NCBI GenBank assembly: GCA_946481105.1
Contig: CAMLMM010000025.1
Coordinates: 1 to 25,970, forward strand
DNA length: 25,970 nucleotides
Direction of reading: 5' to 3'
From: an uncultured Alphaproteobacteria bacterium
Lineage (GTDB): Bacteria > Pseudomonadota > Alphaproteobacteria > Micavibrionales > Micavibrionaceae
The notes under the pieces were generated by a model that was not told where the DNA came from, did no database searches, and was given only the letters and a program-made list of their open reading frames with translations. Positions 4,952 to 6,274 of this stretch are shown here, piece after piece. The stretch's first letter is position 1, and every line of letters starts with the position of its first letter. The translations under genes and the position numbers were made by a program.

Positions 4952-6138
4952 TATTGCAGGGATTGCGTGGCGCTCATCTCATCACGCACTTTCTGACGCA
5001 GTCGATCAATCGGGAACTGGCGTCCGCCTTCGCGGTAATGCCAGTATGTCCAGCCATTGCAGCTTGGCGCATCCTGCAGGGCGGCACCGACCTTATGGAT
5101 GGAGCCACGGTATTGATTTACACCAGTCTGGGCGATAACACTGCCATCCGCGCCGACCTTCGCCTGAATTTCATTGCGGCTGTCAGTCAGTGTTGTTCCT
5201 GCCTTAATCAGGCCACGTTCAATCAGCCATCCAAACGGCACACGCGGTTCCTCACGTTTCAGCGGTTGAGACAATAATTGGTTTTCAGCAATAGGTTCTG
5301 CCTTGGCGATACGGGCCTTGGCCAGCTTGATATAGCTGTCTTCGCGTTCAATCCCGATCCAGTCGCGGCCGAGTTTCTTAGCCACCGCCCCGGTGGTGCC
5401 CGAACCAAAGAACGGGTCAAGGACGGTATCGCCCGGCTGGGTCGAGGCCATCATGACGCGGTAGAGCAGGGCTTCCGGCTTTTGCGTCGCATGGCCTTTG
5501 TCACCATTTTCATCCTTAATACGTTCCGCGCCCGTGCAGAGTGGAATGGTCCAGTCGGAGCGCATCTGCACATCGTCATTCAGTGTTTTCATCGTGTCAT
5601 AGTTAAAGCGGTATTTGCTTTTCTCGGATTTCGCGGCCCAGATCATGGTTTCATGCGCGTTGGTAAAGCGGCGGCCACGGAAATTCGGCATCGGGTTCGA
5701 TTTACGCCAGACGACGTCATTCAAAATCCAGTAACCCAGATCCTGCAAAATCGCGCCCACGCGGAAAATATTGTGGTATGACCCGATAACCCAGATAGCC
5801 CCGTCATCGGTCAGCAGGTCGCGCGCGGCGGACAACCACTCACGGGTGAATTTATCGTAGTCGGCAAAGGAGGAGAACTGGTCCCAGTGGTCGTCCACGG
5901 CATCGACCTTGGACGCGTCTGGACGGTGCAGATCGCCCTTCAGTTGAAGGTTATAGGGTGGATCGGCAAAAATCATATCGATTGACCCTTTGGGCAGGGA
6001 GCGCATCATTTCGATGCAGTCACCCTGGAGAATCACGTTTTTCTTAAGTTCGGTTGATTTTGGGGCCTTGGCGCCTGTGGATAACTTTGTGGATTTTCCT
6101 GTGGATTTCGCAGATTTCGGCGCTTTTGGACTCGACAT
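4951..6138 (-). CDS. ccrM: CcrM-type adenine-N6 DNA methyltransferase (GANTC)
   Basis: CcrM methylates adenine in GANTC and helps time alphaproteobacterial cell-cycle transcription. This is a beta-class order: the catalytic ADPPYNLQL motif comes first (residues 58-66) and the SAM-binding [10 protein letters not shown] follows. The C-terminal domain carries the CcrM hallmarks [26 protein letters not shown] and [11 protein letters not shown] chose ATG at 6138 (395 residues) because an AAAGGGGAA Shine-Dalgarno lies about 9 bases upstream. In-frame starts at 6180 (ATG) and 6231 (TTG) exist, but that stretch looks like leader DNA full of GANTC sites. Residues 2-33 are a Lys/Ser/Thr/Pro-rich tail absent from the 358-residue Caulobacter protein. 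The stop overlaps folB by one base. Confidence 0.93.
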
Positions 6139-6274
6139 TTTCGTTTTCCCCTTTGGTGTCAGGAGAGAATCATGATTCATTTGCGACTCGCCGTCAAGAA
6201 AATAAAACACCGATTCATTTATGTGAATCAATTAGTTATTAATGAATCTTCATATGAAATCTAGTGAAATATTA
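6139..6274 (-). promoter_or_regulatory. ccrM leader with dense GANTC cluster
   Basis: The 136 bases between rnhB and the preferred ccrM start hold six GANTC sites, at 6167, 6174, 6185, 6212, 6225 and 6244; a seventh lies at 6129 just inside the gene. Chance expectation for a 5-mer with one free base is about one per 256 bp. The sites at 6167 and 6174 form a perfect 12-bp palindrome, GAATCATGATTC. Those at 6212 and 6225 are the arms of GATTCA-N6-TGAATC. In Caulobacter, ccrM transcription depends on CtrA and is influenced by GANTC methylation in its own promoter. Autoregulation here is an inference from that precedent and the site density. Confidence 0.75.
6228..6242 (-). promoter_or_regulatory. 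Candidate CtrA box upstream of ccrM
   Basis: Read on the minus strand the element is TTAA-N7-TTGA, one mismatch from the alphaproteobacterial CtrA consensus TTAA-N7-TTAA. It lies about 90-105 bases upstream of the preferred ccrM ATG, between two GANTC sites. CtrA is known to activate ccrM in Caulobacter. Such a short AT-rich motif can occur by chance, so the position is the main support. Confidence 0.45.

Follow-up and report, generated by a model that had tools for sequence, protein, structure and literature searches.

A cluster of GANTC sites in the predicted promoter of an alphaproteobacterial ccrM gene and its conservation across the class

In the window, the term used here for the whole stretch of 25,970 nucleotides that was analysed, the genes mutY, folB, ccrM and rnhB are recognized by profile matches, and open reading frames further along, resembling ackA, pta and secA, were named by eye. 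The ccrM product belongs to the CcrM family: it matches profile NF050803 with an E-value of 1.1e-187 and 623 bits, a score under the curated cut-off of 830, below which every genome in the class sample also falls, and it matches the Caulobacter CcrM chain 6pbd with an E-value of 1e-161 (residues 34–388). Its identity amounts to 80% with the CcrM of an Alphaproteobacteria MAG (L001) and 69% with that of Micavibrio sp. UBA6139 (L002); the source of the window is an alphaproteobacterium close to Micavibrio. The gap between rnhB and ccrM (6139–6274, 136 bp) has a G+C content of 0.32 and contains six GANTC sites. The features of this region are given below in the direction of transcription, together with their state in an alignment of eight leaders, namely those of the window, L001, L002, L004, L005, L006, L007 and L011.

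6275..6946, minus strand: rnhB, encoding ribonuclease HII (NF000595, E 5e-71), the upstream neighbour of ccrM in the same direction
6244..6248, minus strand: most upstream GANTC site of the leader; L001, L002 and L006 likewise have a site lying 19 bp upstream of the 13-bp pair
6228..6242, minus strand: CtrA-box-like TTAA-N7-TTGA, a weak match with 7 of 8 positions of TTAA-N7-TTAA; the same half-sites occur only in L001 of the seven relatives
6225..6229, minus strand: upstream GANTC site, second from the −35; GANTC in 8/8 aligned leaders
6212..6216, minus strand: closest of the upstream GANTC sites to the −35, spaced 13 bp from the following one; six of seven relatives retain this 13-bp pair, L007 having lost it
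6192..6197, minus strand: predicted −35 element TTGACG (sigma70 scan); TTGAC invariant in 8/8 aligned leaders
6185..6189, minus strand: GANTC site in the spacer (GAGTC within CGAGTCG, which fits YGAKTCG); GANTC here in 8/8 aligned leaders
6174..6178, minus strand: GANTC site abutting the −10, its last C being base 1 of the −10; register +19 from TTGAC; 8/8 aligned leaders
6169..6174, minus strand: predicted −10 element CATGAT (sigma70 scan), separated from the −35 by a 17-bp spacer
6167..6171, minus strand: GANTC site that overlaps the −10 at its end and follows the previous site by 7 bp; kept in L001, L002, L007 and L011 (4/7)
6148..6154, minus strand: purine-rich, Shine-Dalgarno-like AAAGGGG, 9 nt before ATG 6138, read from the sequence
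4951..6138, minus strand: ccrM, encoding a GANTC adenine methyltransferase of 395 amino acids, with ATG at 6138
6129..6133, minus strand: GANTC site in codons 2–3 of ccrM (GAGTC within ATGTCGAGTC), coding

The original prediction reported seven GANTC sites, starting at 6129, 6167, 6174, 6185, 6212, 6225 and 6244, at the start of a GANTC methyltransferase gene. All seven are present at these positions. The placement of the cluster holds with a correction: ccrM is encoded on the minus strand, with six of the sites lying upstream of ATG 6138 and the one at 6129 being coding. As a separate observation, four of the seven relatives (L001, L005, L007 and L011) retain ATGTCGAGTC at codons 1–4 of ccrM (6129–6138), a conservation that may be coding or regulatory.

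Two upstream codons were considered as starts of ccrM and rejected. Translation from TTG 6231, which would turn the leader sites into codons and had been named at the outset as an outcome that would speak against the cluster, is unlikely because L004 and L007 each carry an in-frame stop immediately 5′ of their own ATG, with their leader GANTC sites beyond that stop, and because RNA from the predicted promoter at 6197–6169 would start downstream of 6231. ATG 6180 was set aside on the basis of the relatives' leaders and the predicted promoter position.

The promoter predicted by the sigma70 scan is TTGACG-17-CATGAT, at 6197–6169 on the minus strand; a second match of equal score is listed at 6227–6199. 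Relative to the first T of TTGAC, the six leader sites lie at −51, −32, −19, +8, +19 and +26. The −35/−10 region of the predicted promoter thus carries GANTC both within the spacer and abutting the −10 element.

The expectation that the density of GANTC lies far above chance was borne out. The densest 120 bp of the window, starting from 6129, contain seven sites, compared with three in the best stretch elsewhere, and none of 300 shuffles of the window that preserved dinucleotides placed more than five sites in any 120 bp. Within the gap, six sites were obtained in 3 of 20,000 local dinucleotide shuffles (mean 1.0). A wider density test covered 400 kb from three Micavibrio genomes, with the ccrM locus of the third genome lying outside the sampled stretches, and counted 655 GANTC sites (1.64 per kb). 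Only three clusters of at least four sites per 136 bp were located, at L255:17511 (seven), L263:19414 (seven) and L255:10501 (five); stretches with at least six sites number only two, and both are ccrM leaders. A similar density at many unrelated promoters, which had been raised as a reason for doubt, was not found in these 400 kb. The GANTC cluster at ccrM is exceptional.

Two observations on GANTC outside the ccrM leaders may be recorded here. The window as a whole (1–25,970) is poor in GANTC, with 73 sites compared with 103.7 expected from 100 shuffles. The five GANTC sites at L255:10501–10580 fall within 80 bp, about 175 bp before an open reading frame that resembles, by eye, ribosomal protein L21.

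Loss of the cluster in close relatives, another possibility considered from the start, is not seen, the cluster being kept across the aligned leaders. In all eight of them, TTGAC is invariant, as are the G, A, T and C of three GANTC sites, while the N base varies: at the counterpart of the window's 6225–6229 it reads T,T,C,T,T,A,A,G, at the spacer site G,C,G,A,A,A,G,C, and at the −10 site A,C,T,C,C,C,C,C. Spacings of 19, 13, 23–27, 11 and 7 bp between GANTC sites recur among the relatives. In a larger collection of 80 related loci, 77 gave a gene core (not L003, L051 and L067), L039 and L066 being almost without leader, and a GANTC pair spaced 10 or 11 bp is present in 62 of the set formed by these 77 loci and the window.

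The original prediction had further drawn attention to the palindrome GAATCATGATTC at 6167–6178 and to the inverted repeat GATTCA-N6-TGAATC. The letters of both are present in the window; among the seven relatives, those of GATTCA/TGAATC are kept exactly or nearly in L001 alone. As functional symmetries both were rejected and are judged incidental, since they rest on N bases, which differ between species, whereas the GANTC sites and their spacing persist.

A profile search detected ccrM at an E-value of 1e-100 or better in 204 of 289 genomes of the class. The 110 leaders analysed come from the best-scoring of these 204 (30 loci plus 80 of the next 83, without G001, G233 and G113) and constitute a non-random set, with distant CcrM genes too sparsely represented and with related genomes left unthinned. 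Each leader comprises 330 bp ending 30 bp past the profile start, with gene coordinates derived from the profile. A first class count relied on locating the genes by motif, whereby 10 of the 110 were missed and some misplaced (L196), and is superseded by the count on profile coordinates. In an earlier set, 76 of 90 TTGAC-bearing leaders had GANTC at +5 to +24.

By this count, the number of GANTC sites per leader ranges from 0 to 12, with at least three in 90 leaders, two in 10 and one in six. Their density is 13.2 per kb in the 110 leaders compared with 1.6 in the rest of the same stretches; the leader is strictly densest in 89 cases, equal in 12 and lower in nine. TTGAC is found in 99 of the 110 leaders, and GANTC lies at +5 to +24 from it in 86 of the 110 (counted per leader, for any TTGAC in the 330 bp), compared with 27 of the 482 TTGAC occurrences elsewhere in the same stretches (counted per TTGAC, and hence in a different unit). 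Two or more GANTC sites fall within +5 to +24 in 54 of the 110 leaders, and a site sits at exactly +19 in 62. The TTGAC–GANTC core is absent from 24 of the 110, and four leaders are without any GANTC in their 330 bp.

The letters within the core were counted in a set of 76 leaders picked for GANTC at +5 to +24, and the following counts are conditional on that choice. At the spacer site, the N base is uniform (G17 A13 T17 C18). At +19, the full GA.TC is found in 53 of 75 scored leaders, a single leader has three of the four letters, and C or A is the usual N base (C35 A17 T1). Of 74 leaders scored for the −10 element, 65 combine A at position 2 with T at position 6. Fixed GA and TC around a drifting N are as expected if selection acts on the methylation target and not on a single fixed sequence. 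Comparison of the leaders indicates that GANTC is under selection in ccrM promoters throughout the class.

A further conserved element was noted in the class-wide ccrM leaders. At −45 to −12 from TTGAC, 46 of 76 leaders have TAA with C or G as the next base, often shortly 5′ of TTGATTC, compared with 7 of 76 and 9 of 76 in two control stretches.

The specificity of the layout for ccrM depends on the number of sites required. The pattern TTGAC-N3-GANTC-N6-GANTC gave 11 matches in the 10 genomes of the related loci, 10 of them at ccrM, and none when reversed. In the 289 class genomes it gave 41 matches in 40 genomes, compared with two for the reversed pattern; 32 of the 41 are located at ccrM and eight elsewhere, one (G104) being undecidable. 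The looser TTGAC-N14-GANTCA-N3-T matched seven times in six Micavibrio-like genomes, six of these at ccrM, with no match for the control, and 65 times in 96 class genomes (at least 22 at ccrM) compared with 22 times when reversed. Single-site matches outside ccrM therefore number up to 43 against a control of 22, an excess of about twofold, which may mean that the layout with one site also occurs at some other promoters. The layout with two sites comes close to being a ccrM signature; that with one site is not exclusive to ccrM.

Several known systems resemble the one in the window. The ccrM promoter of Caulobacter crescentus likewise contains GANTC, with two sites, and its expression is tied to hemimethylation (PMC10073500, PMC2217572); ccrM is also listed as most probably methylation-controlled (PMC3973325). 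Compared by its description, the Caulobacter promoter has two sites and is driven by CtrA, whereas the window has six leader sites, a TTGAC-type core and a weak CtrA-box-like sequence. A timed group of Caulobacter transcription starts is marked by GANTC placed between the −35 and the −10 (PMC4287350), and the promoters served by GcrA–sigma70 (ctrA P1, mipZ, ftsN and podJ) resemble that of the window in having GANTC between or near the −35 and −10 (PMC4287350, PMC3885167). Members of the GcrA/CcrM regulon mostly have one GANTC, and 11 of 96 cell-cycle starts have more than one within 50 bp upstream (PMC4287350). In contrast, ccrM of the window has two in the spacer region and four others, in a register common to many members of the class. 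The ftsZ and mipZ promoters also feature a conserved CGACTC 5′ of a cell-cycle gene, where methylation raises activity (PMC3708114), but these are other genes with one conserved site and involve no action of the methyltransferase on itself. GANTC methylation has been reported for a Micavibrionaceae group (PMC9296519). The window ccrM is a strikingly conserved variant of known regulation, the Caulobacter two-site promoter being the known case.

At the ccrM promoter of the window, a full CtrA box TTAA-N7-TTAA is absent, and the match with seven of eight positions at 6242–6228 is not on the −35. TTAA-N6–8-TTAA at −45 to −12 was found in two of the 76 TTGAC-type leaders and is therefore not general among them. 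In L136 and L137, about 105–135 bp ahead of the ccrM profile start, TTGAC gives way to a perfect TTAA-N7-TTAA followed by GACTCATGATTC; this suggests a possible takeover of the −35 by CtrA with the −10 sites retained. In Sinorhizobium, CtrA binds the ccrM promoter and ccrM is lower on CtrA depletion (PMC4433202). Taken together, the box in L136 and L137 and the binding in Sinorhizobium argue that other ccrM control exists.

The cluster in the window is likely to be an ancestral ccrM promoter whose activity depends on methylation of CcrM's own target sites. GANTC occupies set positions in a predicted core of sigma70 type and looks selected as GANTC across the class, and methylation-tuned expression of ccrM, as a proposal of general form, is well supported by the comparison of leaders. 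To this extent the original suggestion that methylation tunes ccrM stands; its argument from symmetry does not. In the proposed sequence of events, replication would convert fully methylated leader sites into hemimethylated ones. Hemimethylation would change the opening of the ccrM promoter by RNA polymerase, and CcrM would be made. The enzyme would then re-methylate the sites and thereby reset the promoter, while the upstream GANTC sites may add strength or timing. By analogy with Caulobacter, a promoter that is active when hemimethylated and damped by full methylation, constituting negative feedback, is on balance favoured over positive feedback driven by methylation. CcrM would thus probably sense its own work to set its own level.

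How the core sites would be read is less clear-cut. GcrA is the leading candidate reader, with m6A near the −10 as its main rival, and the chances that a GcrA–sigma70 complex reads the spacer and −10-abutting sites are judged to be about even. Methylation-dependent binding of GcrA has been established at other promoters (PMC3667746), and its extended motif is YGAKTCG (PMC7987155). This motif is found in 42 of 117 core sites compared with 97 of 570 background sites (p 1e-5), an enrichment of about twofold that is uncorrected for base composition. In the window, the spacer site CGAGTCG fits the motif and the −10-abutting site does not. The assessment of GcrA balances this enrichment and the detection of gcrA in nine of the 10 genomes of related loci against the retention of the core where gcrA is not detectable. 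Among leaders from genomes in which gcrA was detected, 68 of 88 have the GANTC core; among those from genomes in which it was not, 18 of 22 do (Fisher p 0.78). No correlation between gcrA and the core, and therefore no link to GcrA, is seen among the 110 class leaders, where genes missed in draft genomes could blur the comparison.

A further-reaching proposal, which is put forward tentatively, is that a ccrM core with GANTC welded to the −10 is ancestral and near class-wide, and that it is both older than and separable from the CtrA and GcrA wiring of Caulobacter. Direct self-sensing would then be primary, and polymerase alone would read the sites where GcrA is absent. It is rather unlikely, taking the evidence together, that m6A beside the −10 works without GcrA, by a direct influence on promoter melting or on sigma contact. 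Such an action would account for the fixed register, because the modified bases would lie at about −15 and −13, and it agrees with the exact +19 position in 62 of the 110 leaders and with the core in 18 of the 22 leaders lacking detectable gcrA. Against it stand the occurrence of YGAKTCG, which is about twofold commoner in core sites than in the background, and the methylation-dependent binding of GcrA established elsewhere (PMC3667746).

The sites might instead belong to the motif of another DNA-binding protein, in which case methylation would not be the signal, or the protein would shield the sites from CcrM in the manner of MucR. This is improbable. The leaders do share flanks, with TTGATTC upstream and TGACTCAT at the −10, the N base at +19 is biased (C35 A17 T1), and MucR is known to shield GANTC at some Caulobacter promoters (PMC5172544), but the spacer N varies freely between fixed GA and TC, and at +19 half-decayed sites hardly occur. 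Titration of CcrM by the sites, or marking of the region for repair or replication with ccrM transcription unaffected, would be compatible with a site number that varies from 0 to 12 per leader, but is very improbable given that the positions of the sites are set by the register of the core promoter and not by mere proximity. Chance or base composition, for which the A+T-rich gap (G+C 0.32) could be invoked, can be dismissed almost entirely in view of the 3 of 20,000 local shuffles that reached six sites and of the conservation across the class.

CcrM controls cell-cycle timing in Alphaproteobacteria, and to our knowledge the way in which its level is set has been worked out in few species. 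If methylation of its own sites does govern the ccrM promoter, the layout found in 86 of 110 ccrM genes, with the exact −10 place in 62, would provide a simple testable rule: CcrM would read its own product at the promoter of its own gene. A literature search limited to open-licence papers turned up no mention of a register fixed across the class at ccrM. A comparative study from 2010 counted GANTC per 500-bp promoter and stated that methylation control was not derivable (PMC2877005). Alignment on the core promoter, instead of counting of sites, exposes the constraint.

GANTC was also inspected in the gcrA leaders of eight relatives. Five of these have no GANTC within 400 bp and L081 has two, whereas the Micavibrio-like L084 and L085 have four sites in 69 bp and three in 37 bp, respectively, located 100–170 bp before gcrA. 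Lesser GANTC clusters therefore occur at gcrA leaders.
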